Shown: positions 9,980-29,948 of the stretch, piece after piece
How positions within the stretch are numbered: the first letter of the stretch is position 1
Layout: each line of letters begins with the position of its first letter
Position numbers and translations under genes: made by a program
Notes under the pieces: generated by a model
Databases searched by the model: none
The model's input: the letters and a program-made list of their open reading frames with translations, nothing else
What the model was told of the DNA's origin: nothing
Assembly: GCA_027449105.1 (NCBI GenBank)
Contig: DAIDMG010000006.1
Coordinates: 1 to 45,593 of the forward strand
Direction of reading: 5' to 3'
DNA length: 45,593 bases
Source: Acidiphilium sp.
Lineage (GTDB): Bacteria; Pseudomonadota; Alphaproteobacteria; Acetobacterales; Acetobacteraceae

Positions 9980-10984
9980 TTACGGCGACCTAGCCGCCGA
10001 TTCTCCGTCGCGAAGCGTCCCGGGAACCACGGGCAAGTCTGGATGTCGCGTCCAATCCGCCATTGAGCCGGTGTATAGTGCAACATTTGGGTCTTTCTCG
10101 ACTTCCCGCAAAACAAACCAATCGCCTGAAGCCAAATAAGAAGTGTTACAGAACGTGATCATCGGCTTGTTCATGTTGAGGCCGGCCGTCTCAATTTGCG
10201 TTTTTATTTCCGATTCCGGCCGGAGCCCTTGGCCAGTAGCCGTTAACATGTATTGAATAGGGAGATTAATGGCGCCGGGAATGGTACCTGCTTTCAATAC
10301 AACCGGTGATTTCACTTTTCCTTCGAACTGTTCTGGTGGTCGCGCGTCAACAAGAATAGGCGTACCATTCCTCATCGCGGCTTCAACGGTCGCTGCTGTC
10401 GCCATGTATCCCGGCTGCAATTTTCCCGTGAATGTAACCGCATGTGGTGTTGCGGCGCCAGTTTCTATCGGGTCCGTGGAGTCAGATCTCCATGCTTCGT
10501 TACCTCCATTCAGAATCGAGACATAATGTTGACCTTCTGCGTTCAATGCCCAATAAATCCAGGTTGCTGCACTGAACACGTCAACTCCCGTTGGGCCACT
10601 GCCTGCAGGTACAAGAATCACGCGAGTACCCGGAGCAATTCCAAATCGACCAATGACCGCATCAATATTTTTTTGTGGTGGTAGCAACCCAGGTACACCA
10701 TTAACTGAAAATCGCCATCCATCACTGACAAAACCCGTGAACACAGCTCCCGGAATATGGCCTTTTTCGTATGTGCTTTTATCACTAGCTGCCGGATAAA
10801 TATCCAGGATCACCATGTTGGCATCATTTAGATGGGCTTTCAGCCAAGCCGTGTCTACTAGTGGAGGAACACTTGATTGTGCCATCGCATTCGCAAACGG
10901 AAAGACCGATAGATAAATTGACGCGACCGCAATGGCGATTGTCGATAATGCACGTTGACTGGAAACCGCTTTTGATATGCTCAT
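9980..10984 (-). CDS. Exported tandem-rhodanese sulfurtransferase
   Basis: A 334-residue protein with a Sec-type signal peptide (residues 1-36, hydrophobic core ALSTIAIAVASIYLS, cleavage after NAMA), so it should act in the periplasm. Two rhodanese domains follow, about residues 40-165 and 180-315. The second carries the candidate sulfur-binding cysteine near residue 279 in ITFCNTSYLASG; its loop differs from the usual CRxGxR of SseA-like enzymes, so substrate choice is uncertain. The first domain has no cysteine at the equivalent place, as usual for tandem rhodaneses. The ATG at 10984 is preceded by AAAGGGAGC, which decides the start over an upstream in-frame extension. It is divergent from the psr operon across about 240 bases containing an FNR-type box, suggesting a role in supplying or handling sulfane sulfur for periplasmic sulfur respiration (inference). 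Confidence 0.85.
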   Translation of the reverse strand: MSISKAVSSQRALSTIAIAVASIYLSVFPFANAMAQSSVPPLVDTAWLKAHLNDANMVILDIYPAASDKSTYEKGHIPGAVFTGFVSDGWRFSVNGVPGLLPPQKNIDAVIGRFGIAPGTRVILVPAGSGPTGVDVFSAATWIYWALNAEGQHYVSILNGGNEAWRSDSTDPIETGAATPHAVTFTGKLQPGYMATAATVEAAMRNGTPILVDARPPEQFEGKVKSPVVLKAGTIPGAINLPIQYMLTATGQGLRPESEIKTQIETAGLNMNKPMITFCNTSYLASGDWFVLREVEKDPNVALYTGSMADWTRHPDLPVVPGTLRDGESAARSP

Positions 10985-11113
10985 AAAGCTCCCTTTCCAT
11001 CTCTTTAAGAGAGGCATGCGTCCTATTTGACGGCCATAGCGCACCCTCGCAGCAACACAAGAGTCTCGGCCGGCAACGGCACAGTTGACTATGCCCAATG
11101 GGCGTATGCGTCA

Positions 11114-11227: not shown

Positions 11228-13453
11228 GTGAATATTCGCAGATCGGATGTCAGGATGCAAAGGCGTGAGTTTTTAAAGCTAAGTTCAGCTGTCGCATCGA
11301 CCGCCTTGTTGGGTGGCGGCCTCACCGCATGTAGTGAACCGGCTGAATGGCAGAAGATGATGACGGAAGCACCGGCGAAAATAACACCAACCGTTTGCAA
11401 CATTTGCTTCTGGTCTTGTGCGGCTCAAGTGCATACCCGAGGTAACCGACTCTGGAAAATCACAGGAAATCCAGCCGATTCACATTCTGAAGGGCGGCTA
11501 TGCACGCGGGGAACCGGAGGTATCGGCGCATATGCCGATCCTAATCGTCTCCTCAAGCCCTTGTTACGCGTTTCGAAAGGGGGATCTCAAATTCTGGAGC
11601 CCGTAAGCTGGGACGACGCTCTTAATTTCATTGCCGAGCGAATGACCAAGATTGCAGCAGAATATGGACCTGAGCATTTTGCGGCGATGGTGCATGGAGC
11701 GGGTGCGCAGCATTTTCTTCATCTTGCCCGCGCTTATGGTACGGACAGCGTCGCGGAGCCGGCTTTTGCGCAGTGTCGAGGCGCGCGGGACACGGGATAT
11801 TTCCTCACTTTTGGCCAGGGGCTTGCGTCGCCTGAACAAACGGATATGGAAAACGCCCGCTGTGTGGTTTTGATCGGGACCCATATCGGTGAGAATTTGC
11901 ACAATAGCCAAGTCCGGACGTTTACCGATGCGGTTCGGAACGATGCCCATATAATTGTTGTCGATCCCCGCTTCTCCGTGGCTGCGAGCAAGGCGGACCA
12001 CTGGCTACCCATTCGCCCCGGCACTGACATTGCATTGATGCTGGCTTGGATGAACGTGATACTGGCTGAACGGCGTTTTGATGCAGCTTATATTTCGACC
12101 AACACGGTAGGCTTCGATGAGTTAGCTGCCCATGTGGCCCCTTTCACGCCCGAATGGGCTTACGGAGAGACGGGAATCACAGCTGCTCAGATTCGTGAAA
12201 CTGCGCGCTTGATGGCTATGGCTGCACCGGCCTGCGTATTTCATCCGGGCCGACATGCGGCGTGGTGGGGTGATGATACACAACGCGCGCGAGCAATGGC
12301 AATTCTTTCCGGCCTTCTGGGCATCTGGGGCCAAAAAGGCGGTTATTATCTTCCGGAAAAGGTTGATGTTCCACCTTATCCCGTGCCCTCCTATCCGGTG
12401 CCAAAAACGAGCTGGCGTGACTTAACACTTAAGCAGTTCCCGTTAGCTGGCGCGCCGGTGACAAACGTTGTTCTTGAGAACTCCATTGGTAAGGATGCTT
12501 TCTACAAAGGATTGTTAGTATATGAGACTAATTTGCCAATGACAATACCAAACGGCGCACAGCAACTCGCTCAGGCCGCTCAATCTCTCGATCTAATTGT
12601 TGCGATTGACGTGCAGCCATCTGAAATGACGGGCTTTGCTGATGTTATACTGCCTGAATGTTCCTACCTGGAACGGTACGACGGCCTGCGTAACGACGCA
12701 GAACGTGAACCTTCAGTGGCTGTTCGTACGCCAGCGTTACGGCCGCTAGGAGATTCGAAAGCAGGTTGGTGGATTGCAAAGCAAATTGGTGGGCGGTTGG
12801 GCCTCGACGCATTCTTTCCATGGAGTGACTATAAAGAGGTGATTGACTGGCAATTGAATCAGGTTGGATTGTCGCTGCTCGAACTAGAGAAGACAGGTGT
12901 ACACTACTTCCCGCGCAAAACTCCTGTCTATAGTGAGCCTGGCACGATTCCACGACTCGCCACGCCAAGTGGGAAGATCGAATTTTTTTCTTCCACATTG
13001 CAGGAAGCTGGGTTCGATCCACTGCCGCGTTATACAGCACCAAAGGTGCCACCCAGCGGCTACTACCACCTTAATTATGGGCGCGCGCCACAACACAGTT
13101 TCAGCCGTACGCAGAATAACCCTGTATTGTACCAGTTGATGCCGGAAAATGTTGTGTGGATACACCCACTCGTAGCTGCCCAGTTTGAAATTGCGAACGG
13201 GAGTTATGTACGCCTCTTAAATCAGGATGGAATTGTCAGCAATAAGGTGCGAGTACGCGTAACAGAGCGTACGCGCCCAGATTCGGTTTGGCTGGTACAC
13301 GGGTTCGGACATGAGGCGCGTGGCCTTGTCCTTGCCTACGGCCGCGGAGCAAATGATGCCGCATTGATGACACGTATTCTATACGATCCGATAATGGGCA
13401 GCACGGGTATGCGCGGAAACTTTGTTACGTTCCGCAAGGAGATTACCGTATGA
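11228..13453 (+). CDS. psrA: Polysulfide/thiosulfate reductase molybdopterin subunit
   Basis: A 741-residue catalytic subunit of the DMSO-reductase superfamily, close in length to PsrA/PhsA (about 760). The N-terminus holds a Tat motif (RREFLK, residues 12-17) and a lipobox-like LTAC with Cys35, so it is probably a Tat-exported, membrane-anchored periplasmic enzyme. CNICFWSC near residues 57-64 and a later Cys in GRLCTRG bind a [4Fe-4S] cluster. The cysteine in AFAQCRG is the probable molybdenum ligand. Expected reaction: reduction of polysulfide, elemental sulfur or thiosulfate to sulfide with electrons from PsrB/PsrC. The three substrates cannot be separated by eye. The GTG at 11228 gives the full frame; the ATG at 11255 (residue 10) is a good alternative that still keeps the Tat signal. 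It overlaps psrB by four bases (ATGA). Confidence 0.88.
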   Translation: MNIRRSDVRMQRREFLKLSSAVASTALLGGGLTACSEPAEWQKMMTEAPAKITPTVCNICFWSCAAQVHTRGNRLWKITGNPADSHSEGRLCTRGTGGIGAYADPNRLLKPLLRVSKGGSQILEPVSWDDALNFIAERMTKIAAEYGPEHFAAMVHGAGAQHFLHLARAYGTDSVAEPAFAQCRGARDTGYFLTFGQGLASPEQTDMENARCVVLIGTHIGENLHNSQVRTFTDAVRNDAHIIVVDPRFSVAASKADHWLPIRPGTDIALMLAWMNVILAERRFDAAYISTNTVGFDELAAHVAPFTPEWAYGETGITAAQIRETARLMAMAAPACVFHPGRHAAWWGDDTQRARAMAILSGLLGIWGQKGGYYLPEKVDVPPYPVPSYPVPKTSWRDLTLKQFPLAGAPVTNVVLENSIGKDAFYKGLLVYETNLPMTIPNGAQQLAQAAQSLDLIVAIDVQPSEMTGFADVILPECSYLERYDGLRNDAEREPSVAVRTPALRPLGDSKAGWWIAKQIGGRLGLDAFFPWSDYKEVIDWQLNQVGLSLLELEKTGVHYFPRKTPVYSEPGTIPRLATPSGKIEFFSSTLQEAGFDPLPRYTAPKVPPSGYYHLNYGRAPQHSFSRTQNNPVLYQLMPENVVWIHPLVAAQFEIANGSYVRLLNQDGIVSNKVRVRVTERTRPDSVWLVHGFGHEARGLVLAYGRGANDAALMTRILYDPIMGSTGMRGNFVTFRKEITV

Positions 13454-13992
13454 CCCATTATGCGATGGTAATAGATACCAAGACTTGCATTGGCTGCACG
13501 GATTGTGTTGATGCATGTCGGATGGAAAACAATGTTCCGGAGGGCCTTTGTTACGATTGGGTCGTTGAAATTACAACCGGGCGGTATCCTGTTCTCAAAA
13601 CGGAGTTCCGTTCGGAACGCTGCAATCATTGCTCACACGCGACATGCGTTGAAGCATGCCCTACCGGAGCAAGCCAATATTGGAACGACAGCAATATCGT
13701 CGTTGTTGATGCTACGAAATGCACAGGCTGCAAAGCGTGCATTGCGGCTTGCCCTTATGACGCGCGCCTGATCATGCAGCCACAGGGGTACATCGGAAAA
13801 TGCACGTTCTGTGTCCAGCGCGTACAATATGGCATGGATCCCGCATGTGTCGCAGTTTGCCCAGCGCACGCAATGCATTTTGGTCTTCTCGACGATCCGA
13901 CAAGCACGGTCAGCAGATTGTTGGACGAGCGCGACAATTATACGTTGCACCCTGAAACCGGAAATCATCCTAACGTGTTCTATCTCCGTTAA
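13450..13992 (+). CDS. psrB: Four-cluster ferredoxin electron-transfer subunit
   Basis: A 180-residue PsrB/PhsB/NrfC-type protein with sixteen cysteines in four groups (CIGCTDCVDAC, CNHCSHATCVEAC, CTGCKACIAAC, and CTFC with CVAVC), binding four [4Fe-4S] clusters. It should carry electrons from the quinol-oxidising membrane subunit to the molybdenum subunit on the periplasmic side. It has no signal peptide of its own, as is normal when exported bound to the Tat-carrying catalytic partner. The start overlaps the psrA stop by four bases, indicating translational coupling. Confidence 0.9.
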   Translation: MTHYAMVIDTKTCIGCTDCVDACRMENNVPEGLCYDWVVEITTGRYPVLKTEFRSERCNHCSHATCVEACPTGASQYWNDSNIVVVDATKCTGCKACIAACPYDARLIMQPQGYIGKCTFCVQRVQYGMDPACVAVCPAHAMHFGLLDDPTSTVSRLLDERDNYTLHPETGNHPNVFYLR

Positions 13993-14018: not shown

Positions 14019-15059
14019 ATGCGTGAAGAAGTATTGGCAAGCGTGCTGGCAAACCCACGGGTGGAGCCGCATCTCGCAATATGGGGTTGGCAGATTGCCA
14101 CGTACCTTTTTCTAGGAGGCCTCTCTGCTGGATTGCTGATTTTTTCTGGATGGGTGGTGGCGACCCGACGAGTTGGCCGAGCACCGTTCGCAGCTAATCG
14201 GGCGCCACTGATCGGCCTAATCATTCTGTCGATTGGAATGGGTACGCTGTTTCTGGACCTTGAGCGTAAAATTAACGTGTGGCGCTTTTATGCCTATCTA
14301 AATCCTACATCGCCAATGTCGTGGGGTGCTTGGATACTAATTGCAGTGTTTCCAGTTTTCGCATTGCTGGCGGTAGCTGGGTTGCCAGATGGCTTTCCTC
14401 AGCTTGCTGGCAAGCTGCGAGAACTGCCGGTTGTCGGCAAGTCGACGATGGCTCCTTTGATCGACATGTGTGGCGTTATTCGTAGTCCGCTCGCCGTTGC
14501 CGGGATCGGCCTTGGCGTTGCGCTTGGCATTTACACGGGCGTTCTGCTCTCGGGATTCAACGCGCGGCCCTTCTGGCACTCGGCACTGCTTGGACCGCTT
14601 TTTCTTGTATCGGGACTTTCGACCGGGGCAGCGCTTCTGGTTCTCGGGGCTGGAACTGCGGAGGAGCGTCATCTTTTCAGCCATATCGATCTCGGGCTTA
14701 TTGTAGTCGAGATTGCGTTGGTTTTTCTCTTCCTGATTGATATGCTGAATGGTGATGCGCTTCAGCAGCATTCGGTATTTCTTGTTCTTGGTGGTGGCGC
14801 AACCGAGTTGTTTTGGATCGGTTTCATTGGTCTGGGCCTTGCAGTTCCGCTGACTCTGGAGACAGCGATATGGCAGCGTTCGACAGCTTTGATTGCCGGT
14901 GTTGCCTCGGTGCTGGTTCTGGTCGGTGGTTTTCTACTTCGCGACGTCATGGTAACGACAGGACAGCAAACGAGTTGGGCTAGTTTCCATAACCAGTTCA
15001 ATGCCTCGTTGCTCGCCAAGCTGCGGACTGACGGTGAAAACCCCAACGGACGTTTCTAG
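14019..15059 (+). CDS. psrC: NrfD/PsrC-type membrane quinol subunit
   Basis: A 346-residue integral membrane protein with about eight to nine hydrophobic helices, typical of the NrfD/PsrC family. It anchors the reductase and oxidises quinol. AACCAGGAG precedes the ATG by about eight bases, 26 bases after psrB. Family features include the early GWQIATYLFLGGLSAG helix and LDLERKINVWRF after helix 3. The gene context (psrA, psrB) makes the assignment safe. The type of quinone cannot be read from sequence, but the UbiA-type prenyltransferase two genes downstream is relevant to that question. Confidence 0.9.
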   Translation: MREEVLASVLANPRVEPHLAIWGWQIATYLFLGGLSAGLLIFSGWVVATRRVGRAPFAANRAPLIGLIILSIGMGTLFLDLERKINVWRFYAYLNPTSPMSWGAWILIAVFPVFALLAVAGLPDGFPQLAGKLRELPVVGKSTMAPLIDMCGVIRSPLAVAGIGLGVALGIYTGVLLSGFNARPFWHSALLGPLFLVSGLSTGAALLVLGAGTAEERHLFSHIDLGLIVVEIALVFLFLIDMLNGDALQQHSVFLVLGGGATELFWIGFIGLGLAVPLTLETAIWQRSTALIAGVASVLVLVGGFLLRDVMVTTGQQTSWASFHNQFNASLLAKLRTDGENPNGRF

Positions 15060-15069
15060 GAGCCCTGGC

Positions 15070-15729
15070 ATGACGAAGTCTAAACCGCGCCCGACCGGCC
15101 TGTCTCTTCTTGCGATGGTTGCTGCTGTTCCCACGTTACCAGCCGCAGTCCCTGCACTCTCGCCACTCCGGGTGGCATGGGCCAACGCGTCCAAATCAAC
15201 ATCATTGCAGAGCCTTGCTCAGGTAGTGGCGCGCGGTGAAGACATGGTCACGCCAGAGCATCTAAGCTCCCTGATCCTAGCAAATCGACGTGATTTTAGT
15301 TTAATTGACGTCCGAACTCAGCAAGAGTTTGTACGTGGCCATATTCAAGGCGCGGTGAATATTTCCATCCCGAAGCTACTTGAACCAGCTGAAGTTGTCC
15401 GGTTACGCCGGATGTCACGCGTGATTCTGTATGGCGATAATACGGTGCGCGCGGCAGAGGCAGCGACCTTGTTACGCGTTGCTGGTGTGCCAGCTCTGAC
15501 GCTTGAGGGGGGACTCGTCGGATGGGCACAGCATCTGAGCTCAGATGCCAGACGACCAGAAACCACTGCAATCGTAAGGGCACTAAACCTATGTCCGGAA
15601 ATCACTCCAGCGAGCATTGCACCGCTCGCTCCGAACCCCACAACGGCACCGACGACATCCGCTCCTGCTGCGGTTCCCGCTACACCAAAAAGCAAAACGC
15701 CTGTGAATCTCAACGGTATGTGTGGGTGA
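15070..15729 (+). CDS. Exported rhodanese-fold protein lacking catalytic Cys
   Basis: A 219-residue protein. Residues about 10-40 are hydrophobic and end in AWANA, a likely signal peptide. Residues about 60-160 form one rhodanese domain: LIDVRTQQEF, HIQGAVNI and EGGLVGW are its landmarks. The active-site loop, usually YCRSGNRS, reads YGDNTVRA here: the cysteine is replaced by Gly122, so it cannot act as a classical sulfurtransferase. A Pro/Ala/Thr-rich linker (about residues 178-212) leads to a C-terminal GMCG with Cys218 as the penultimate residue; the only other Cys is Cys175. TAGGAG, which includes the psrC stop codon, serves as ribosome-binding site for ATG 15070. It is the fourth gene of the psr operon. 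A sulfur-binding or carrier role is inference. Confidence 0.8.
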   Translation: MTKSKPRPTGLSLLAMVAAVPTLPAAVPALSPLRVAWANASKSTSLQSLAQVVARGEDMVTPEHLSSLILANRRDFSLIDVRTQQEFVRGHIQGAVNISIPKLLEPAEVVRLRRMSRVILYGDNTVRAAEAATLLRVAGVPALTLEGGLVGWAQHLSSDARRPETTAIVRALNLCPEITPASIAPLAPNPTTAPTTSAPAAVPATPKSKTPVNLNGMCG

Positions 15730-15733
15730 GGAA

Positions 15734-17287
15734 ATGAGCGCGATCGGGGCAAGGGTAGATACTGTTAAGCCTTTTGGCCCTTTCTTAAACCCTGAGGTCG
15801 AGGCGCTTTTCGAGTCGGCTCGCTATCTTGTGTTGGCTGCTTCCGTAGACGGAAACAACTCGGCAGCTCCATTCTTGTGCCGACGCGACGGGCCAACACT
15901 GGTATTTATGTGCTGGCGAGGCGCCCGCGTTGCCGCACAAATGGCAATCAATCCTTTAGTCCAGGCAGTGATTCTTGGGGATTCTCCGGCGGATCAAAAA
16001 ACAGCCGCACTGGAAGTCACCGGCCACTGTCACACCATACGTGACCGCAGCGAGCGCGAGCGTATCGCGTTCCTTTTGTTGTCGGATTTTGAAGGACTGG
16101 ACCTTGCGAACTATGCTGTATTTCAGTTGCTCCCGACCCGTCTTGCGCTGGTCAACCCTCTTGGAGCATCCATCCACAGGTCGCAGCGGGTAGCCAATTA
16201 TGAATTAACGGATACGCGCGAAGCCATGACGGCGGTCGAGGGATTCATGCGACTTTGGATTCGCGCAATCCGCGCGCCTTTTTTTACCGCGGCAATCATT
16301 CCAGTAATCCTTGGCGGCGCCGTGGCGTGGGCAGGAATGACGCGTCTTGGTACAGAGCAGGCGTTTTCTTGGCCGTTAATGCTGTGGTGCCTTCTCGGTT
16401 CAATACTGGCCGCCGCGGGAACCAACCTAGTGAACGACTATGGTGATGACGAAACCGGCGCTGATGATCCGAATGAGGCGACAGGCAATCCCTTCACTGG
16501 CGGTAGCCGTACGATCCAGCTTGGGCTTGCCGCCCCGTGGAAGATCTTTGCGGCGGGATTGAGCTGTTTTGCCCTCATGGGACTGGTCGGACTACATATC
16601 AATGCACTGATCGCAGGTGCACCTCTTGCACGATCTCCTTTGTTTTTGTTTGGGTTGGCTGGGGCCCTCCTTGGAATTGCCTATACGGTAGGTCCGTTCC
16701 GCCTCTCCTACCGAGGATACGGAGAACTTGCAGTTGCTCTTGGGTTCGGACCTGTCATCTTGCTAGGCACGCTATATGTGTTGAGCCATGCTGCGAAGAT
16801 CGCAACTCCTTGGGCCGCGGGAGTATTAGCAGCGCTTCCGATTTCAGTTTTCGTCCTGCTCGTCCTTTGGATTAATCAGTTTCAGGACGCCGGGGCAGAT
16901 TCGGCTTCTGGGAAAAGGACCTGGGTAGTTCGACTGGCTGAGAAATCAGCCGACCTTGACTTCACTCTACCGTTCAGAGTCTACGTGGTGCTCAACGTTA
17001 TGGGCTTTGGTTTCGTGGCCGTGATTGCGACGCTTGGATTTTTTGCGCCAACCGTCGGAACGCCATACGCGGCTTTAGCCCTCCTCGCCGTACCGCTATT
17101 TGTACGAGCTCAAAAGCTCGGTTCGACGTGGGTTAAGCAATGGGCCTCAAGGACTGACAGCCCAGATGAACGACGTCGATTGTTTTTTTCTTTACTGCCT
17201 GTCAATGCACTTACGATCTCTATTCATGCGGCCGCTGGGATCCTTTTGGCGGTTGGTTATATTATCTCTGGATGTACTGCTTTGTAG
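15734..17287 (+). CDS. PNPOx-like flavin domain fused to UbiA prenyltransferase
   Basis: A 517-residue two-domain protein. Residues about 15-160 resemble the pyridoxamine-phosphate-oxidase-like split-barrel family (FLNPEVEALFESAR, LAASVDG, NPLVQAVILGD, TGHCHTIRD), which often binds FMN or F420. Residues about 175-517 are a UbiA-type membrane prenyltransferase with roughly eight or nine helices and both Asp-rich motifs: NDYGDDETGADD (234-245) and NQFQDAGADSASGK (381-394). The first motif and the following GGSR resemble MenA (1,4-dihydroxy-2-naphthoate prenyltransferase) more than UbiA proper. A quinone-biosynthesis or quinone-modification role for the Psr system is inferred. The ATG at 15734 follows GAGGA closely; GTG 15722 is an alternative. 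It starts five bases after the rhodanese-like gene and ends overlapping the convergent START-domain gene. Confidence 0.82.
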   Translation: MSAIGARVDTVKPFGPFLNPEVEALFESARYLVLAASVDGNNSAAPFLCRRDGPTLVFMCWRGARVAAQMAINPLVQAVILGDSPADQKTAALEVTGHCHTIRDRSERERIAFLLLSDFEGLDLANYAVFQLLPTRLALVNPLGASIHRSQRVANYELTDTREAMTAVEGFMRLWIRAIRAPFFTAAIIPVILGGAVAWAGMTRLGTEQAFSWPLMLWCLLGSILAAAGTNLVNDYGDDETGADDPNEATGNPFTGGSRTIQLGLAAPWKIFAAGLSCFALMGLVGLHINALIAGAPLARSPLFLFGLAGALLGIAYTVGPFRLSYRGYGELAVALGFGPVILLGTLYVLSHAAKIATPWAAGVLAALPISVFVLLVLWINQFQDAGADSASGKRTWVVRLAEKSADLDFTLPFRVYVVLNVMGFGFVAVIATLGFFAPTVGTPYAALALLAVPLFVRAQKLGSTWVKQWASRTDSPDERRRLFFSLLPVNALTISIHAAAGILLAVGYIISGCTAL

Positions 17288-17731
17288 GTCACACACTGAC
17301 AACGGACGGCGCAGAGCTTCGTCATGAAACGCACTAACGGTCTTCCGAAGTAACATCGGTAATAGTCTCCGAGACATAGTATCCAGCGTCGCTGGACGAA
17401 AGCTAATCGCAAGATCCGCACTGATTTTTGTTTCCCGTGAGCTGATTTCAGCTAACGTCCAGCACAAATGAAAGCGGCGTAGGGGAACGGTAGTTCCTGT
17501 TATCTCTAAATGGTGCGGAGGCCGCAAGCGAGCAATCGTCTCAAATTGAAGCAAAATGCCAAGGACAGAAACCGCCTGTTGGACTCGCCAAAAACATGGG
17601 TCACGTTGGATAATCTTTGCGGTGTGCCAAAATGGGACAAAGTGTGGATATGACTCGATGTCAGAAATCAGATCAAAGACAGGTTGAATAGGGAGATTGA
17701 TTCTTGTTTCCGCATGCGTTGTGTTCAACAT
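17192..17731 (-). CDS. COQ10/RatA-type START-domain (SRPBCC) protein
   Basis: A 179-residue soluble protein. Residues 8-145 match the coenzyme-Q-binding COQ10/RatA pattern: an opening strand, PIQPVFDLISDIESYPHFVPFW (the family signature around DIExYPxFxPW), a middle LQFETIARLRPPHHLEI and a final amphipathic helix. COQ10 proteins bind quinones in a hydrophobic cavity and help deliver them to respiratory complexes. The last 30 or so residues are polar, low-complexity, and encoded antisense to the 3' end of the prenyltransferase gene (96-base tail-to-tail overlap), so the frame may have been extended past an ancestral stop. Being next to a UbiA-type gene favours quinone binding over a RatA-like ribosome role; this is inference. 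It is transcribed away from the hydrogenase operon. Confidence 0.72.
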   Translation of the reverse strand: MLNTTHAETRINLPIQPVFDLISDIESYPHFVPFWHTAKIIQRDPCFWRVQQAVSVLGILLQFETIARLRPPHHLEITGTTVPLRRFHLCWTLAEISSRETKISADLAISFRPATLDTMSRRLLPMLLRKTVSAFHDEALRRPLSVCDLQSSTSRDNITNRQKDPSGRMNRDRKCIDRQ

Positions 17732-18206: not shown

Positions 18207-18303
18207 TAAAAGACAAGCTTAAACGTCGAGAATGCTGCCGACATAGTCACCTTCGCCTCGTGAACGGGTGGCCCACGCCGCAGCGGTTTCGGGGAGCACG
18301 AGG

Positions 18304-19428
18304 ATGGCGGCCGAGATCCAAACGTTCTATGATGTCATGAGGGCGCAAGGAACAAGTCGCCGCTCTTTTTTGAAATTCTGTAGTCTAACCGCGGCAGCGT
18401 TAGGCCTCGAACCGATTTACGCATCCAAAATTGCTCACGCGATGGAAACAAAGCCAAGAATACCCGTGCTTTGGATGCATGGTTTGGAATGTACCTGTTG
18501 TTCAGAGTCGTTCATTCGCTCAGGTCATCCGTTGGCAAAAGACGTGATCCTAAAGATGATCTCTCTTGATTACGACGATACACTGATGGCAGCCGCCGGC
18601 GCTCAAGCAGAGGCAATTCTCGATGAAATTCCGAAAAGGTACAAAGGTGAATATATTCTTGCGGTAGAAGGTAATCCTCCGCTCAACGAAGACGGAATGT
18701 ATTGTATCGTTGGCGGAAAGCCATTTGTCGAAAAACTTCGGGCCGTGGCTGCCGATGCTAAGGCAGTGATTGCATGGGGCGCTTGCGCGTCATGGGGATG
18801 CGTACAGGCGGCACGGCCCAATCCTACGCAGGCCACACCGATTGATAAAGTAATCACTGACAAACCTGTAATTAAAGTTCCAGGCTGTCCACCGATTGCC
18901 GAAGTGATGACTGGCGTAATCAGTTATATGATTACTTTTGATCGGCTGCCGGAACTCGACGGGCGGGGCCGCCCCTTGATGTTCTATGGACAGCGCATTC
19001 ACGACAAATGTTACCGCCGGCCTCATTTTGACGCCGGGGAGTTCGTTGAATCCTGGGATGATCTTGGTGCCAGAGAAGGTTACTGCCTCTACAAGATGGG
19101 ATGCCGTGGCCCAACAACATACAATGCGTGTTCTACAATTCGCTGGAATGGCGGAGTCTCATTCCCGATTCAGGCTGGTCACGGCTGCATTGGCTGTTCC
19201 GAGGACAATTTCTGGGACAATGGACCCTTCTATCATCGGCTATCGCATGTGGGTGCGGGCTTCGGAGTTGAGGCGACAGCCGACGAGATTGGTGGTTTGG
19301 CCGCTAGTGCAGTTGCGGCGGGCGTAGTCGCCCACGCGGGACTTAGTGCCGCCAAACATTTGCGAAAAAACAGGCATGACGACCACCCATCGCCGAACCG
19401 TAAGACGGACGATGGAGAGCGGTCATGA
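18304..19428 (+). CDS. hupS: [NiFe] uptake hydrogenase small subunit, O2-tolerant type
   Basis: A 374-residue precursor with a Tat signal (RRSFLK, residues 19-24; cleavage after about residue 47), so the mature protein is periplasmic. It carries the Fe-S relay of a membrane-bound group 1 [NiFe] hydrogenase. The proximal-cluster cysteines are 63, 65, 66, 161, 166 and 195. Subtracting 46 gives 17, 19, 20, 115, 120 and 149, the six ligands of the [4Fe-3S] cluster in E. coli Hyd-1. ECTCC and GACASWGC therefore include both supernumerary cysteines of oxygen-tolerant (group 1d) enzymes. [12 protein letters not shown] belongs to the medial-cluster region, and a C-terminal hydrophobic helix (about 325-345) anchors the complex. 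The ATG at 18304 follows GCACGAGG; an in-frame GTG at 18268 is less likely. It overlaps the large-subunit gene by four bases. Confidence 0.93.
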
Positions 19429-21221
19429 CTACTATAACGACGCCAAATGGCTTCACGATCGATAACAGTGGAAAACGGATGGTTGTTGACCCGATCACCC
19501 GTATCGAAGGCCATCTGCGCTGCGAAGTTAATCTCGATCAAAATAACGTCATCCGAAACGCAGTTTCATCAGGGACGATGTGGCGTGGATTGGAGGTCAT
19601 ACTCAAAGGGCGCGACCCACGCGACGCGTGGGCATTTTGTGAGCGGATTTGTGGCGTTTGTACAGGTATTCACGCCCTCGCGTCCGTTCGTGCAGTAGAA
19701 GATGCGTTGGGGATCAAGATTCCCGAAAACGCAAACTCGATACGCAACCTGATGGAAGCCACGCAGTGGGCACAAGACCATCTTGTCCATTTTTATCATC
19801 TGCATGCCCTAGACTGGGTCGACGTTGTCAGTTCATTGAAAGCGGATCCCAAGGCAACCAGCGACCTGGCCCAGAGTATTTCCCCTTGGCCCAACTCATC
19901 GCCAGGGTATTTTCGCGACGTCCAATCCAAATTAAAGAAATTTGTAGACTCTGGACAGCTCGGCCCTTTCATGAATGGCTATTGGGGAAATCCAGCCTAT
20001 CTTCTGCCGCCGGAAGCCAATCTGATGGCCGTCTCCCATTATCTTGAAGCGCTGGATTTTCAACGCGAGATCGTCAAGATTCATACTGTTTTCGGCGGAA
20101 AAAATCCGCATCCGAACTGGCTGGTCGGCGGCATGGCCTGCGCCATCAACGTGGATGGCCCTCTTGCCGCAGGTGCGCCAGTGAATATGGTGCAGCTCAA
20201 TCTTGTTTCCTCAATTATTGACCGTACGATTGCCTTTATTGACCAGGTTTATATTCCCGATCTGATGGCGATCGCTTCCGTCTATAAGACTTGGACTTAT
20301 GGCCGTGGGCTCGCCGGACAGAATGTTATGTCGTACGGCGACTTTCCTCTGCATGCCAACGAGTTTTCCGAACAAAATCTGTTAATACCACGTGGCGCCA
20401 TCGTCGACGGCAAGCTCGACGCTGTTTTTGATGTCGATCTGAGAGACCCCTCACAAGTACAGGAATTCGTAGATCATTCCTGGTATCGGTATCCTGATGA
20501 AGCGGCCGGGCTTCATCCTTGGGCGGGCATCACCGATCCGAACTTCGTTCTTGGTCCGGCCACGGTTGGAACGAAAACGGATATTAAACAACTAGACGAG
20601 GATGCGAAGTATTCATTTATCAAGGCACCGCGCTGGCAGGGACATGCCATGGAGGTGGGTCCTTTATCACGATTCACAATAGGATACGCGAAAGGGATTG
20701 CGGATTTTAAGGAACCTGTTGACAAAATGCTGACAGATCTCGGCTTGCCGATAGACGCGTTGTTTACAACGCTTGGGAGAACTGCCGCACGAGGCCTTGA
20801 GGCCTCATGGGCGGCCCACAAGATGCGGCTCTTTTTCGATCAGTTGATGAGCAATCTCCGAGCTGGCGATTTGGCCACGGCAAGTACCGAGAAATGGGAA
20901 CCGGCCACGTGGCCGAAAGAGGCGAAGGGCATCGGTCACGTCGAGGCGCCTCGCGGGTCACTGGGGCACTGGATCCACATCAAGGACCAAAAAATAGAAG
21001 CATATCAGGCAGTAGTCCCGACCACATGGAACGGCTCACCTCGTGATCCCTCCGGCAATATCGGGGCATTTGAGGCCGCCTTGCTTCATACACCTCTTGC
21101 AGAAGCCACTCAGCCTCTCGAGATCCTGCGAACGCTGCACAGCTTTGATCCCTGTCTCGCGTGTGCAACCCACGTGCTCGCACAAGATGGTGGCGAACTG
21201 GTTCGCATCCAAGTCCGGTAG
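19425..21221 (+). CDS. hupL: [NiFe] uptake hydrogenase large subunit
   Basis: A 598-residue catalytic subunit, standard length for group 1 enzymes. It holds the NiFe(CN)2CO site that splits H2 into protons and electrons. The N-terminal nickel motif is [12 protein letters not shown] and the C-terminal one DPCLACATH. After the His the precursor has a 15-residue tail (VLAQDGG...), which the endopeptidase removes once nickel is inserted. [11 protein letters not shown] near the start is the family signature. The protein has no signal peptide and would be exported with the small subunit. It overlaps hupS by four bases and is followed 28 bases later by the cytochrome b gene. Confidence 0.95.
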
Positions 21222-21249
21222 TTAACGGCGATGAGTAGAGAACGAAGCA

Positions 21250-21972
21250 ATGCTTGATCGCACGGAATCAATTGACGTTGACGAGTCTAGCGCGCCAATC
21301 TCTGCGCCGGTGTATGTGTATGAAGTTCCCGTTCGTCTGTGGCACTGGACAACAGCGGCAGTCTTTTTTGTCCTCTGCGTAACTGGATTCCTGATCGGGG
21401 ATCCAGTATGGCCGCAGTTCATAGGTCAGCCTTATGATCACTTCCTGATGGGTGAAATCCGGCTTGTTCACTTTGTCAGTGGCTATATTCTCGCGCTAGC
21501 GATGCTGGTTCGCATCTATTGGGCATTTGTAGGGAATCGGTACTCGCGGGAAATATTTTTTCCGAAACTATGGTCGCCGGCATGGCGCCAGCAATTCGTC
21601 AAAACTATTCGCTGGTATTTTTTGATTGAGTCCGAGTCCGGCAGAGAGATTGGACACAATTCTCTGGCTCAAATCACCATGTTCATGATGTTCGTCGTTG
21701 GCGTTATTTTTGAAATCATTACTGGTTTCGCTTTGTATGGAGAAGCCAGCGGTTATGGATCGTGGTCCTATACGCTCTTTTCACGCTGGGTAGTGCCTCT
21801 TTTCGGCACTGGTCAGGAAGTTCATACGTGGCATCGTCTTGGCATGTGGTATCTTGTCATCTTCATGATCGTGCACGTCTACATGGTAATTCGAGAAGAC
21901 ATTATGTCGCGTCAGACAATGCTCAGTACCATGATCAATGGATGGCGCTATTTCAAGGATCGCGGTCAATGA
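21250..21972 (+). CDS. hupC: Ni/Fe-hydrogenase b-type cytochrome subunit
   Basis: A 240-residue inner-membrane diheme cytochrome b with four hydrophobic helices. It anchors the hydrogenase heterodimer and passes its electrons to the quinone pool. Histidines in VRLWHWTTA, in LVHFVSGYILA and in HTWHRLGMWYLVIFMIVHVYM are at the expected heme and distal-cluster contact positions. The C-terminus is cytoplasmic. Its stop codon overlaps the start of the protease gene (ATGA), so the two are probably translationally coupled. The ribosome-binding site is weak (GAGAACGAAG). Confidence 0.93.
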   Translation: MLDRTESIDVDESSAPISAPVYVYEVPVRLWHWTTAAVFFVLCVTGFLIGDPVWPQFIGQPYDHFLMGEIRLVHFVSGYILALAMLVRIYWAFVGNRYSREIFFPKLWSPAWRQQFVKTIRWYFLIESESGREIGHNSLAQITMFMMFVVGVIFEIITGFALYGEASGYGSWSYTLFSRWVVPLFGTGQEVHTWHRLGMWYLVIFMIVHVYMVIREDIMSRQTMLSTMINGWRYFKDRGQ

Positions 21973-22514
21973 GAAATAGCGCTGCCATTCTTGGAATTGG
22001 AAACGTTCTTTGGGCCGATGAAGGATTCGGCGTTCGTGCCGTCGAAGCGCTACACGCACGCTATTGCACCAAAGACGATGTTGCGATCATCGACGGTGGT
22101 ACCCAAGGGCTGAGCCTTCTTCCCATTGTCGAGGACGCGGAGTTTCTTCTTATTTTTGACGCAATCGACTTTGGTTTGCCATATGGAACCATGAAATCCG
22201 TTTTCGACGAGGATGTGCCGCGTTATCTTACGGCAAAAAAATTAAGCCTTCATCAAACGAGCTTTCAAGATGTCTTGGCACTCGCACAACTGTCTGGTCG
22301 GATTCCCTCACGAATGGCCCTAATAGGGGTTCAACCTCTTGATCTCAATACTTATGGAGGCGGCCTCACGGCGCCGGTCGCAGCGCAAATCAGGCCCGCA
22401 ATCGATCTCGCGTTGTTTTACCTAGAGGACGCTAATGTTAAATTTATACCGCGCCTTGAGGGTGATGAAATAGAACCGCTCAGCCCGTTATCTGTTGTCG
22501 GAGTTGACGAGTAA
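21969..22514 (+). CDS. hupD: Hydrogenase maturation endopeptidase
   Basis: A 181-residue cytoplasmic HyaD/HupD-type protease that cleaves the C-terminal tail of the large subunit after nickel insertion. Nickel-recognition residues are in place: the Glu of LWADEGFGV, the Asp of IDGGTQG and the His of LHQTSFQD. GIGN near the N-terminus is the usual opening motif. The ATG overlapping the cytochrome b stop codon gives the normal family length; longer upstream versions of the frame run inside that gene. Its presence directly after hupSLC follows the standard order of uptake-hydrogenase operons. Confidence 0.93.
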   Translation: MRNSAAILGIGNVLWADEGFGVRAVEALHARYCTKDDVAIIDGGTQGLSLLPIVEDAEFLLIFDAIDFGLPYGTMKSVFDEDVPRYLTAKKLSLHQTSFQDVLALAQLSGRIPSRMALIGVQPLDLNTYGGGLTAPVAAQIRPAIDLALFYLEDANVKFIPRLEGDEIEPLSPLSVVGVDE

Positions 22515-22556
22515 AATCGATGTGTAACACGCATGATATATTTGGATTTTCGTTAA

Positions 22557-22958
22557 ATGAAACGAGCGATGGCGGTTAATCGACTGATCACGCAATATGA
22601 CGTTCATGACTTCACGGGTGTGGCGCTTGACGCCTTTGTTCGTGACGGTCTGACATTGTTGTTTTTTACGGGCGATCCAATACGATATCCTGAAATCGAC
22701 GACGTCGCAGTTGTACTTGTGGAACTTATTAAAACATTTAGCGGACGTTTCCGCTGCGCCATAATAAACCCAGATCACGACGGGCCCGCTGCCGCGCGCT
22801 TCGGCGTTACGATCCGGCCAACCCTTGTCTTCGTGTACGATGGCGCCGTGATGAGCAGTCTCCCTCGAATGCGAGATTGGTCTGAATATGTAGAGAAAAT
22901 CAGTGTACATCCAGATCTTTCTAAACCATTCCAGGTGCCGGCTGTAAGGGAGCGGTAA
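22557..22958 (+). CDS. hupG: Hydrogenase expression protein HupG/HyaE
   Basis: A 133-residue thioredoxin-fold protein of the HyaE/HupG family, which chaperones the Tat-dependent small subunit before export. The usual thioredoxin CxxC is absent (FFTGDPIRYPEI at that place), as expected for this family. A cis-Pro-type segment, GVTIRPTLVFVYDG, is present. ATG 22557 is taken; ATG 22569 is almost equally good, giving a protein four residues shorter. It is two bases from hupH, so the operon continues without a break. Confidence 0.85.
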   Translation: MKRAMAVNRLITQYDVHDFTGVALDAFVRDGLTLLFFTGDPIRYPEIDDVAVVLVELIKTFSGRFRCAIINPDHDGPAAARFGVTIRPTLVFVYDGAVMSSLPRMRDWSEYVEKISVHPDLSKPFQVPAVRER

Positions 22959-22959
22959 A

Positions 22960-23799
22960 ATGACCCAGCCACTCTCGGATAATGTCTTTCCCGGTTTGCC
23001 TTTTTCTGAGCCCGCCGCAGAATATCTGCCGATTCGGCGAGAGATGAATGTGTTATCGCCTCCGGCGTTACCAGCTGAGTTACAACTGAATGGGCGAGGA
23101 AGTTACTGGGTTAATAGGATTGCCAGCTGCCTCGAAGCGTTCGCCCCGGGAAAGAGTGTTGAGGCGATAGATATTTCCAGACTCACTGACGAAGAGAGCC
23201 GCTTTCTTGACGAGATTTTACTCCATGGTGAGGTCAGTGCGCTTATCCTGGGCGAACCCGAGTGGCAGATTGAGGAAACGGCTTATATCGGTCTATGGCG
23301 CATGCGGGCACGCGATCCTGAGACAAATGCGCTTTTGGATAGACTGGTAGTCGGGGAGATACCCAAGATCATCCACGCGCGCGCGGCATCCTTTTGCCAA
23401 CCGATTACTATGCCTCATCGAGGCGCGGTGCCCTTGGGCATAATCAACGCTCCGCACGTGCTGGCCGAACTTGTCGCACGGAGCAAAGCGTTTAATGAAA
23501 CTGGTGTTGGCTATGTCGTCAATCTGGGACTATTGCCTCTCACCGAAGATGAGATGACGTGGCTCGTCAAGAGCCTCGGTGAAGGTCCGGCCATCATACT
23601 GTCGGGCGGGTACGGTGTCTGCCGCATTCGCAGTACACGGCTGTCTGCCACCTGGTGGGTCCAATACTACAACGCAGCGGATGTTCTGATCCTGAATTCA
23701 CTCGAAATCGCAACGGTTCCGTCTGTTGCCTGTGCCTGCAGAGATGACATCGTCGAATCTGCCGCCCGGATCCGGGCGCTTGAGTCTGCTTATCCATGA
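22960..23799 (+). CDS. hupH: Hydrogenase expression protein HupH/HyaF
   Basis: A 279-residue cytoplasmic protein of the HupH/HyaF family. These help mature the small subunit, particularly when hydrogenase is made in the presence of oxygen. The C-terminal half contains the conserved segments LSGGYGVCRIRSTRLSATWW and YYNAADVLILNSLEI. There is no signal peptide or membrane helix. The start lies two bases after hupG, and its stop overlaps an ATG of the rubredoxin frame. Together with hupG and the rubredoxin, it is expected in operons for oxygen-exposed hydrogenases. Confidence 0.9.
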   Translation: MTQPLSDNVFPGLPFSEPAAEYLPIRREMNVLSPPALPAELQLNGRGSYWVNRIASCLEAFAPGKSVEAIDISRLTDEESRFLDEILLHGEVSALILGEPEWQIEETAYIGLWRMRARDPETNALLDRLVVGEIPKIIHARAASFCQPITMPHRGAVPLGIINAPHVLAELVARSKAFNETGVGYVVNLGLLPLTEDEMTWLVKSLGEGPAIILSGGYGVCRIRSTRLSATWWVQYYNAADVLILNSLEIATVPSVACACRDDIVESAARIRALESAYP

Positions 23800-23819
23800 T
23801 GTCCTCAGGGAAAATTAGC

Positions 23820-24002
23820 ATGCCAGACAAATTCGAATGCCGAATATGCTGGCACGTATACAACCCGACTACGGGGGATTCCATTTGGCAAATCCCTGCT
23901 GGAACGACATTTGAGAACTTGCCAGGTGCGTGGCGCTGCCCCAACTGTGACGCTGATAAGAGCCATTTTCTGCCGATCGAGCAGGTTGACTGCGATGCAT
24001 GA
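23820..24002 (+). CDS. hupI: Rubredoxin of hydrogenase operon
   Basis: A 60-residue one-iron rubredoxin. The Fe(Cys)4 site is visible as CRICWHVYNP near the start and CPNCDADKSHF near the end. HupI-type rubredoxins in hydrogenase operons help protect or assemble the small subunit's Fe-S clusters under oxygen. CAGGGA about nine bases before ATG 23820 supports this start; an in-frame ATG at 23796, overlapping the hupH stop, would add eight residues. The stop codon lies inside the hypA start region (8-base overlap). Confidence 0.9.
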   Translation: MPDKFECRICWHVYNPTTGDSIWQIPAGTTFENLPGAWRCPNCDADKSHFLPIEQVDCDA

Positions 24003-24336
24003 AATCGCGCTCTGTGAAGGTTTGGTACAAACCCTTGAAGAGCAAGCAGGATCGCACGGATTCCGCCGTGTTCACAGAGTTTGGCTAGAAATCGGCTCGC
24101 TTGCCTCGGTAGAATGCGACGCCGTCCGGTTCAATTTTGATATTATGGCGCGCGGGACTATTGCTGAAAATGCACAACTTGACATCATGGAAGTCAATGG
24201 AACGGCATGGTGTTTGCCCTGCGGTCTGACTGTTGACCTCCATCGTTTCGGCGACCCCTGTCCGAACTGTGATAGCCACCAGCTTCAAGTGCTCGATGGC
24301 ACCCAGATCAAAATCAAGAAACTCGAGGTGACGTAA
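23995..24336 (+). CDS. hypA: Hydrogenase nickel insertion protein HypA
   Basis: A 113-residue cytoplasmic nickel metallochaperone that works with HypB to insert nickel into the large subunit. The strictly conserved MHE start (nickel site at His2) fixes the start codon at 23995. The zinc site is seen as CLPCG and CPNCDS in the C-terminal half. It overlaps the rubredoxin gene by eight bases and shares one base with hypB (TAATG), so translation is coupled throughout the operon's tail. Confidence 0.94.
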   Translation: MHEIALCEGLVQTLEEQAGSHGFRRVHRVWLEIGSLASVECDAVRFNFDIMARGTIAENAQLDIMEVNGTAWCLPCGLTVDLHRFGDPCPNCDSHQLQVLDGTQIKIKKLEVT

Positions 24337-25181
24337 TGTGCGGAATTTGTGGCTGCGAGCAAACCGCGTCGGGGCTCGGAGGCTACCATACTCATGACCA
24401 TGTTCATAACGAAGTTGCAGAGCTTTGCAATACTTCCGGGCTGCCCAGGACACGCATGGTTCAGGTTGAGCAGGATATAATGGCGGCAAACCAAAGCTAT
24501 GCCGATGCGAACAGGACATACTTTACCGAGCGTGCTATCTTCGTGGTCAACCTCCTATCTAGCCCAGGGTCGGGCAAAACATCGCTGCTGGTCGAAGCGA
24601 TTACTCTGCTCAAGACGCGCTTTCCAGTCGCGGTAATCGAGGGCGACCAGCAGACCAGTCTTGATACCGCGCGAATCTCGGCGACAGGCGTACCTGCATG
24701 GCAAATCAACACGGGAAAGGCCTGCCATCTTGATGCCCACACTATCGCCCATGCGCTCGAACATCTGCCTGCAATCGACGGAGGGATTCTGTTCATAGAG
24801 AACGTAGGCAACCTGGTATGCCCAGCAGGATTCGATCTTGGCGAATCACACAAAGTTGTCATTTTGTCGGTAACGGAAGGTGATGACAAACCGTTAAAAT
24901 ATCCAAATGTGTTTCATGCCGCAGATTTGATGTTGTTGAACAAGATCGATTTGCTACCTTACGTGCGCTTTGATATGAACGCGGCCATCGAAGCGGCTCG
25001 TCAGGTCAATCCGAAAATTGGCGTTTTTGCCGTCTCCGCACTAACAGGCGATGGCCTGGTGGCGTGGCTAGAATGGATCATGGCCGGAATCGATCATGCC
25101 AAAGAGCGTCGTCAGATGGCTTTGCTTGCACGGAGAGCGGCGCTGCAACACGAACTCGATTCAATTGACTTGCAATTTTGA
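24336..25181 (+). CDS. hypB: Hydrogenase nickel incorporation GTPase HypB
   Basis: A 281-residue GTPase that delivers nickel with HypA. Residues 2-7 (CGICGC) are the high-affinity nickel motif; a short His-containing patch follows (YHTHDHVHN), much smaller than the poly-His nickel store of some HypB proteins. The GTPase domain shows the P-loop SSPGSGKTS, GDQQTSLDTARI, the metal-binding CHLDAH, ENVGNLVCP and NKIDLL. It is the last gene of the plus-strand operon. Its 3' end overlaps the convergent kinase-fusion gene by 21 bases. Confidence 0.95.
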   Translation: MCGICGCEQTASGLGGYHTHDHVHNEVAELCNTSGLPRTRMVQVEQDIMAANQSYADANRTYFTERAIFVVNLLSSPGSGKTSLLVEAITLLKTRFPVAVIEGDQQTSLDTARISATGVPAWQINTGKACHLDAHTIAHALEHLPAIDGGILFIENVGNLVCPAGFDLGESHKVVILSVTEGDDKPLKYPNVFHAADLMLLNKIDLLPYVRFDMNAAIEAARQVNPKIGVFAVSALTGDGLVAWLEWIMAGIDHAKERRQMALLARRAALQHELDSIDLQF

Positions 25182-26669: not shown

Positions 26670-26672
26670 TGG

Positions 26673-27692
26673 TCAGCAGATGCGCGGAAGTGGGTCGGCC
26701 TCAAGCTCGGGAAGGAAACGCATGCCACCAATCCGAGTTCGAAGCACGACTTGGTTCGATAGATGGTCCGTTCCTTTCTGAATTGTTCCAATGGTGACGG
26801 CATCTTGGCCTTCGGGTAAAGACCGCCAGGCGGTCAACACCTCGTCTGCTGAGGCAGGCGAAGTGACTGCGACCACGCGCCCCTCGCTTGCGAGATAAAG
26901 AGGATCATAACCGAGAATGTCACAAACAGACCGTGTAGTTGGTCGTATCGGGATGAATGCTTCGTCAAGTTCCACAGCCTGCCCACAGCCAGCCGCGATT
27001 TCGTGGGCGACGGTGGCAAGCCCGCCGCGAGTTGGGTCGCGCATGAAACGCACTCCCGGCGTCGAGGCGATCGCGGTGGTTAAGGGCAATACACTCGCTG
27101 CGTCTGAAAGAACATTGCCGCGAAGGCCAAATGCCTCTCGAGCCAACATCACGGCGATCCCGTGATCGCCGATTGGACCGCTCACGAGCACCATGTCTCC
27201 TACAGAGATCATGTGGACGCCGAGCTGAGTACCGTGTGGTCGAACCCCAATCCCAGTTAAGGTAAGATAAAGACCTCCTCCCTGGCCGCGTGGCACGACT
27301 TTTGTGTCGCCGGCCACAACCTTGATGTTGGAAGTGCGCGCCGCCCTCGCCAATCCAGCCACGATCCGTTCTAGTAACGCAATTTCAAGACCTTCCTCGA
27401 TCAATGCGGCAAGGGTGACGTAGAGGGGACGGGCTCCCGAGACAGCGAGATCGTTAACGGTACCGTGCACCGCAAGGGCTCCGATGTCACCGCCCGGGAA
27501 ACACAGAGGCTGCACCGTAAAACCATCCGTTGTGATTACGATCTCACCGTCGGGCAACGCTATGGGTACAGCATCGGCTTCGGTATCTAGTGATTCTTTT
27601 CCGAGATGGCGCACGAATAACTCGTTGATGAGTACACGCATAAGGCGGCCACCATTGCCGTGGGCAAGACTAACATGGACATCCTCAATCAC
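26673..27692 (-). CDS. hypE: Hydrogenase maturation protein HypE
   Basis: A 339-residue PurM-like enzyme that dehydrates a thiocarbamate on its own C-terminal cysteine to a thiocyanate, the source of the active-site cyanide ligands. The essential C-terminal Cys is present: the protein ends PRIC. AHGNGGRLM near the N-terminus and the glycine-rich DPTRGGLAT loop are ATP-binding features of the family. It overlaps hypF by four bases. Confidence 0.95.
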   Translation of the reverse strand: MIEDVHVSLAHGNGGRLMRVLINELFVRHLGKESLDTEADAVPIALPDGEIVITTDGFTVQPLCFPGGDIGALAVHGTVNDLAVSGARPLYVTLAALIEEGLEIALLERIVAGLARAARTSNIKVVAGDTKVVPRGQGGGLYLTLTGIGVRPHGTQLGVHMISVGDMVLVSGPIGDHGIAVMLAREAFGLRGNVLSDAASVLPLTTAIASTPGVRFMRDPTRGGLATVAHEIAAGCGQAVELDEAFIPIRPTTRSVCDILGYDPLYLASEGRVVAVTSPASADEVLTAWRSLPEGQDAVTIGTIQKGTDHLSNQVVLRTRIGGMRFLPELEADPLPRIC

Positions 27693-29938: not shown

Positions 29939-29948
29939 CGCGGTTGGA

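Follow-up and report, generated by a model that had tools for sequence, protein, structure and literature searches.

Structure of the psr locus and the tail-cysteine protein

In this study, a rhodanese-fold protein encoded directly behind psrABC was analyzed. The window, i.e., the whole stretch of DNA that was analyzed, comprises 45,593 nucleotides. The genes and features of the locus were as follows (coordinates, strand, description, and basis of the assignment).

9980..11098, minus: divergent tandem-domain rhodanese of the mercaptopyruvate/thiosulfate sulfurtransferase type (loop FCNTSYLAS, with Cys)
11228..13453, plus: psrA, molybdopterin subunit (Pfam; nearest solved structure Thermus 2vpw; start RREFLK, twin-arginine-like)
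13450..13992, plus: psrB, 4Fe-4S subunit (Pfam Fer4)
14019..15059, plus: psrC, NrfD-type membrane subunit (Pfam NrfD)
15070..15729, plus: probably exported rhodanese-fold protein of 219 amino acids, no loop Cys, tail end LNGMCG (translation, Pfam, alignment)
15070..15186, plus: residues 1–39, basic and hydrophobic N-terminal segment, likely signal peptide or membrane anchor (hydropathy only; low AlphaFold2 confidence)
15283..15531, plus: residues 72–154, rhodanese domain (Pfam; AlphaFold2 block means 92–96, residues 61–150)
15430..15456, plus: residues 121–129, vestigial active-site loop YGDNTVRAA, Gly122 at the catalytic Cys position (translation)
15577..15597, plus: residues 170–176, RALNLCP including Cys175 (alignment)
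15598..15699, plus: residues 177–210, Pro/Ala/Thr-rich linker (composition; low AlphaFold2 confidence)
15700..15726, plus: residues 211–219, tail PVNLNGMCG with penultimate Cys218 (translation, alignment)
15722..17287, plus: fusion of PNPOx-like and UbiA (MenA-like) domains, next operon gene (Pfam)

The frame at 15070–15729 on the plus strand encoded 219 amino acids followed by a stop. Pfam matched Rhodanese (PF00581) at residues 72–154 with 59.7 bits, the cut-off being 22.2. The loop read Y121-G-D-N-T-V-R-A, with Gly122 instead of the canonical cysteine after Tyr121. Cys175 and Cys218 were the only cysteines, and the linker at residues 177–210 contained 8 Pro, 8 Ala, and 7 Thr among 34 residues. 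The initial annotation had described a rhodanese fold with glycine in place of the loop cysteine and a Pro/Ala/Thr linker leading to a penultimate Cys218, with Cys175 as the only other cysteine. Translation, composition, and the Pfam score confirmed both points. Since a rhodanese requires its loop cysteine, the window protein should not act as a rhodanese. At E 0.01, Pfam returned Rhodanese alone for the window protein; a SoxY or DsrC profile was not found in it.

The N-terminus was basic, and the Kyte–Doolittle maximum over 19 residues was 1.80, starting at residue 13. Judged by this hydropathy, the signal peptide proposed earlier is plausible, and the segment is compatible with both cleavage and a membrane anchor. 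The structure of the window protein was predicted by AlphaFold2 from a 20-row alignment of the window and related-locus sequences. Ten-residue block means were 92–96 for residues 61–150 and 46–58 from residue 171 onward. Foldseek with this model returned rhodanese-like structures among its top matches. In a Bacteroidota relative (L027), the core reached 85–96 (residues 51–150) and the tail 46–69 from residue 171 onward, and residues 12–28 were modelled as an N-terminal helix. An ordered rhodanese core and a low-confidence tail were predicted in both modelled members.

The best PDB match of PsrA was Thermus 2vpw (E 1.2e-185). Cys183 of PsrA was aligned to a cysteine of 2vpw, a position that we take to be that of the molybdenum ligand. 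PsrA with this cysteine, the Fe-S subunit PsrB, and the NrfD-type PsrC were therefore all present. The ATG of the tail-cysteine gene at 15070 follows the end of psrC at 15059 with 10 bases between, and the next ORF overlaps the end of the gene. Of the operon membership claimed at first, the adjacency stood; cotranscription with psrABC is suggested by this spacing. The tandem rhodanese appeared by eye to have the N-terminus of an exported protein, and its active loop, FCNTSYLAS, is unusual. Downstream, [NiFe] hydrogenase subunit genes were followed by maturation genes that by eye were of the hyp type (18268–31049). Together with psrABC, this stretch looks like an island for H2-to-sulfur respiration.

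Orthologues in the window's bacterial family

The sample of the window's family comprised 397 genomes. Matches at E 1e-10 were obtained in 13 of them, and nine, including the window's genome, have an orthologue (G000, G002, G005, G007, G008, G133, G266, G288, and G354). The four weak matches (G098, G128, G189, and G384), three of which had stops inside the match, were left outside all counts. Identity to the window protein went down to 46%, and L214, N215, C218, and G219 were invariant in 8/8 full-length rows. The tail end was thus unchanged while the linker diverged, as had been expected of close relatives if the tail matters. The codons of the tail differed at third positions with the peptide unchanged: Cys218 was encoded by TGT or TGC, and Gly219 by any of the four Gly codons. 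A second block, R170-A171-L172-x-x-C175-P176, was invariant in the same eight rows and was not seen in Bacteroidota rows. In G133 the gene lay in two pieces on two contigs (L073 and L074), both with LNLCP and the MCG end. Cys175, which the initial annotation had passed over, was therefore conserved in every genome of the window's clade and is a possible partner of Cys218. Counted by genome, the terminal Cys and Cys175 were present and the loop Cys was absent in 9/9.

The gene order tandem rhodanese, psrA, psrB, psrC, tail-cysteine gene was the same at all eight other orthologous loci, each with a tandem rhodanese match upstream of psrA; at the G133 locus, psrA (gapped), psrB, and psrC matched in part only. 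Hydrogenase genes lay downstream in three of the five loci at which the contig continued (G005, G007, and G266), and were not found after psr in G354 (about 3 kb visible) or G288 (about 7 kb visible). Ten of the 397 family genomes had psrA at E 1e-100, and in nine of them the tail-cysteine gene was present. In the tenth (G009, locus L088), psrA was broken, the tandem rhodanese and a YeeE pair remained, and psrB, psrC, and the tail-cysteine gene were unmatched on the psrA contig. The tail-cysteine gene was not found genome-wide in G009 either, the only match being a weak generic rhodanese (E 8.6e-6). G009 is a case of stepwise module loss, and its tandem rhodanese gene has been kept despite the decay of psr.

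The YeeE pair adjoined the tandem rhodanese in G005, G007, G288, and G009. YeeE matches on contigs other than that of the psr locus were found in G000 (the window's genome, a pair), G008, G266, and G354. YeeE was not found at E 1e-10 in the fragmented assemblies G002 and G133, nor in the four psr-less relatives tested (G001, G003, G004, and G006).

Wider samples of the window's lineage were searched at E 1e-14. The class sample gave 1 match in 385 genomes, the window's own, and the phylum sample gave 2 in 398, the window's genome and G917. The G917 protein was rejected as a family member: it is an ordinary active-loop rhodanese, and psr was unmatched on its 15 kb stretch. A plasmid search gave four records, all below 60% identity and with query coverage of at most 52%.

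Relatives in Bacteroidota and the cysteines of the family

The Bacteroidota locus L027 holds psrA (51%), psrB (58%), psrC (39%), two YeeE/YedE-type genes that matched Pfam Sulf_transp, and a rhodanese of 219 residues. In this rhodanese the loop reads YSDGG, and the last residue is the sole cysteine. With the L027 protein as query, 23 of 247 genomes sampled in that phylum matched at E 1e-15. G1137 (E 1.5e-13) and a second copy in G1136 were added, which gave 25 Bacteroidota rows. All 25 ended in Gly-Cys, and the terminal Cys was the sole cysteine in 21 of them. Identity to the first row was 20–59%, and the only invariant columns were D75, R77, G140, G218, and C219; the last two residues were therefore conserved to the same degree as the core. 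When 28 other genomes were searched with a profile, 12 matches were obtained, including four further members, of which L147, L148, and L158 end in GC and L156 in GCN. Of the other eight matches, the seven that were read were ordinary rhodaneses.

The order psrA-psrB-psrC-yeeE-yeeE-tail-cysteine gene was found in 19 of 24 Bacteroidota genomes (loci L027, L095, L096, L118–L130, and L136–L138). At L135 the contig was cut just upstream, and psrA lay on another contig. At L131–L134 no psr was present within the 16 kb stretch, and the order was tandem rhodanese, YeeE, YeeE, tail-cysteine rhodanese (RMGC); the tandem rhodanese of L132 reads as two ORFs. A SufS-like cysteine desulfurase gene follows in L134, and by eye a similar ORF does so in L133. 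In G1201, one of the four genomes with a psr-less locus, psrA was not found genome-wide at E 1e-100; for G1279, G1228, and G1275 the absence of psr refers to the locus. The YeeE pair adjoined the tail-cysteine gene in all 24 Bacteroidota genomes and at the second copy in G1136.

Among 68 of the sampled Bacteroidota genomes, 10 had psrA at E 1e-100, and seven of these had the tail-cysteine gene. In G1176, G1180, and G1192, whose PsrA was 44–45% identical to that of L027, the tail-cysteine protein was unmatched at E 1e-15, and the contigs stop 0.3–0.7 kb past psrC, so that the region beyond is unseen. These three genomes suggest that Psr complexes may do without the tail-cysteine protein.

In searches with full-length queries, by which a tail-less sister group might be missed, Cys was the last or penultimate residue in 37/37 family proteins (both G1136 copies included, the G133 pieces left out). 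The canonical loop Cys was absent from 35 of the 37 and present in G1260 and G1167, both in psr operons. In G1376 and L148, a Cys lies one residue before the canonical position. Elsewhere cysteine was rare, with 20 among 7104 residues outside the last two positions (33 rows). Ordinary rhodaneses served as a control: the loop Cys was present in 26/26, and 1/26 had a Cys at one of the two final positions. Family and control were both collected by similarity, and the rows are related, so these counts are descriptive and not probabilities. The terminal cysteine expected by the initial annotation was conserved in every family protein read, and so was, at all nine orthologous loci and in 19/24 Bacteroidota genomes, the position beside psr. 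The dead loop held for most members only, as the two psr-operon proteins that keep the cysteine show.

The control consisted of single-domain or ArsR-fused rhodaneses from the same similarity searches, with the loop Cys scored by a scripted pattern. Excluded were 11 long, multi-domain metallo-beta-lactamase/rhodanese fusions, the unread L031, L033, L035, L050, L051, L053, L008, L009, L010, L013, L018, L089, and L094, as well as L006, L007, and L157 (no clean frame) and the near-copies L017, L151, L153, and L155. The one control protein with a cysteine near its end was L014, an ArsR-rhodanese fusion of G007 that ends in GCPIEC and keeps its loop Cys.

Profile-profile comparison of the two clades aligned 108 columns with a probability of 99.3. 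The tails were not aligned, so it is their position and the terminal Cys, not alignment, that speak for their homology. A tree from few columns (121), some of its branches being long, separated the window clade, the Bacteroidota clade, and generic rhodaneses (96/87, 100/99, and 80/93). Under this tree, the tail family can have a common origin only when the root is placed within the generic rows; the tails may also have arisen by convergence. The proteins of L126 and L128 have a canonical loop Cys (YCEDN and YCENN) plus the terminal Cys and were nested among relatives without the loop Cys. Their loop Cys was possibly regained.

Possible function as a sulfur carrier

The only thiol common to the family sits at the tip of a disordered arm, and the genes lie in operons of sulfur reduction and transport. 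This is the anatomy of a carrier. We therefore consider it somewhat probable that the protein is an exported carrier of sulfane sulfur that has its reactive thiol on a flexible arm instead of in the loop and serves PsrA and/or a YeeE/YedE channel; the carrier chemistry is deduced from this anatomy. Such a carrier would work outside the cytoplasmic membrane, and the rhodanese fold, its catalytic Cys gone, would be scaffold and docking surface. The reactive thiol would sit at the end of an arm of about 45 residues. Cys218 could be loaded with persulfide from polysulfide or from the adjacent tandem rhodanese, and the arm would then swing the persulfide to the client. In the window's clade, Cys175 would probably help as a resolving partner or by forming a disulfide or trisulfide with Cys218.

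The likeliest client in the window would be the molybdenum site of PsrA, to which quinone and PsrC would pass on electrons of the [NiFe] hydrogenase encoded nearby. PsrA is favoured by the place of the gene in the operon and by G009, where the gene is missing along with psrB and psrC. The gene neighbourhoods in Bacteroidota speak for YeeE, as a second client at the least, and there the YeeE/YedE sulfur channel might even be the older one. PsrA had been proposed as the client from the beginning. The psr operons support this proposal, but at 4 of 24 Bacteroidota loci the YeeE/YedE pair is present and psr is absent from the locus, which suggests that PsrA may not be a general client.

A carrier that works mainly with a YeeE/YedE (PmpA/PmpB-like) channel, giving or taking sulfane sulfur, with psrABC frequent but not obligatory, seems unlikely to us. 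In Bacteroidota the YeeE pair stands beside the gene in every genome, whereas psrABC does so in 19 of 24, and the four psr-less loci keep the tandem rhodanese and the YeeE pair, one with a SufS-like gene. Work on SoxT has considered that the SoxY cysteine may pass its sulfur into a YeeE-like channel (PMC11582611). However, the gene directly follows psrC in the window's clade, the YeeE pair of the window's genome lies on another contig, and none was found in the fragmented G002 and G133. Of the four psr-less cases, the absence applies to the locus in G1279, G1228, and G1275; G1201 is without psrA genome-wide at E 1e-100.

The cysteines could instead be structural. A Cys175–Cys218 disulfide would tie back the tail, or the terminal Cys would anchor the protein to a partner by a mixed disulfide. 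Disulfides are favoured in oxidising compartments, and both cysteines are invariant in the eight full-length rows of the window's clade. Against this, an internal disulfide is impossible in the 21 of 25 Bacteroidota rows with the terminal Cys alone, and a long disordered arm would be an odd anchor. This explanation is improbable.

A role as accessory or maturation factor of PsrA, as a binding module or in cofactor sulfuration rather than as a turnover carrier, is very improbable. The gene does stand after psrC in the operon, and FdhD-like sulfuration of bis-MGD enzymes is known. But PsrA has a twin-arginine-like start, and a twin-arginine PsrA would receive its cofactor in the cytoplasm before export, while the tail-cysteine domain looks to be outside; loci without psr also speak against this role. 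That the protein is a decaying, functionless rhodanese, as the lost catalytic Cys might indicate, is scarcely credible given an open and conserved frame and a tail constrained in two phyla, with tail and fold kept over long divergence.

The preferred reading, an exported sulfane-sulfur carrier, was compared with known systems. An active thiosulfate or mercaptopyruvate sulfurtransferase was rejected as an assignment, the catalytic loop Cys being absent. Sud of Wolinella succinogenes (PDB 1qxn) resembles the window protein in its rhodanese-type domain; it hands polysulfide sulfur to Psr, as is proposed here for the tail-cysteine protein. The single cysteine of Sud sits in the rhodanese loop, whereas the window protein has Gly there and its thiol on a C-terminal arm. 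Sud is a periplasmic rhodanese-type carrier of polysulfide sulfur for Psr and needs its single cysteine (PMC2754497). Both family profiles matched 1qxn, with E 0.0028 and 4.1e-8.

SoxY carries sulfur in the periplasm and has a Cys close to the end of its flexible C-terminus, but its fold is another one and its partner is SoxZ. The window protein has its Cys within the last residues of a C-terminus predicted to be mobile, but the SoxY fold and profile are absent. In DsrC and TusE, the reactive Cys is the penultimate residue of a mobile C-terminal arm, and a second, upstream Cys can pair with it. DsrC is cytoplasmic, has a different fold, and has its two Cys about 10 residues apart. The window protein likewise has penultimate Cys218 and conserved upstream Cys175, but these are 43 residues apart, and the DsrC profile is absent. 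A defining feature of each of Sud, SoxY, and DsrC was looked for and found missing, so the tail-cysteine protein was classed as none of these.

The gene order psrABC, DUF395, rhodanese is already known, and its last gene has been called a sulfurtransferase (PMC6338057). In Ca. Thermonerobacter and relatives, the genes behind psrABC encode a DUF395 sulfur transporter (two genes) and then a rhodanese-related sulfurtransferase; the closest counterparts of the Ca. Thermonerobacter psrABC are found in Melioribacter roseus and Ignavibacterium album (PMC6338057). The excerpt of PMC6338057 mentions neither the loss of the loop Cys nor the terminal Cys; the present analysis adds these and a branch in the window's lineage beside hydrogenase genes. 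The Psr operon of Desulfurivibrio includes a rhodanese gene with a signal peptide (PMC12142623). Its product, however, has three rhodanese domains and is called a sulfurtransferase, and a terminal Cys goes unmentioned in the excerpted text of PMC12142623. In the metallopterin-dependent ergothioneine synthase MES, Cys1135 is essential and the module ends at 1136; this cysteine was proposed to relay persulfide sulfur towards the metal site of the DMSO-reductase family (PMC9516567). In MES the relay is part of a cysteine desulfurase on the same chain, whereas here the rhodanese-fold protein is separate.

The exchange of a loop Cys for a terminal Cys in a rhodanese was not found in open-licence PMC literature by titles and the beginnings of abstracts. 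Tentatively, and with rather less confidence than would be needed to assert it, the window's lineage and Bacteroidota may share a new class of extracytoplasmic carriers, in which the loop Cys has moved to the tip of an arm that shuttles between a sulfurtransferase, the molybdenum site of PsrA, and the YeeE/YedE channel. To our knowledge, delivery of sulfur or polysulfide to the molybdenum site of polysulfide reductase has been little tested outside the Sud model, least of all at low pH, and sulfur and polysulfide are poorly soluble. At low pH, elemental sulfur prevails over polysulfide (PMC5317093). If the proposal is true, a long arm tipped with a thiol would offer a concrete and testable answer to how the delivery works. 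The recurring "rhodanese" gene of Bacteroidota psr operons would then also be explained, and the tail-cysteine protein would tie Psr to YeeE/YedE sulfur channels. The annotation "rhodanese" can mask a protein incapable of loop-cysteine chemistry.

Two neighbouring genes were also observed. The fusion of a PNPOx-like domain with a UbiA/MenA-like prenyltransferase sits inside the psr operon, and despite this MenA-like gene, MqnA/MqnD (PF02621) was not found in the source assembly, which is 88% complete. A Polyketide_cyc (COQ10-like) gene on the minus strand (17192–17731) overlaps the end of the UbiA gene. It was matched at six of the eight other orthologous loci, the contigs of the remaining two being cut.
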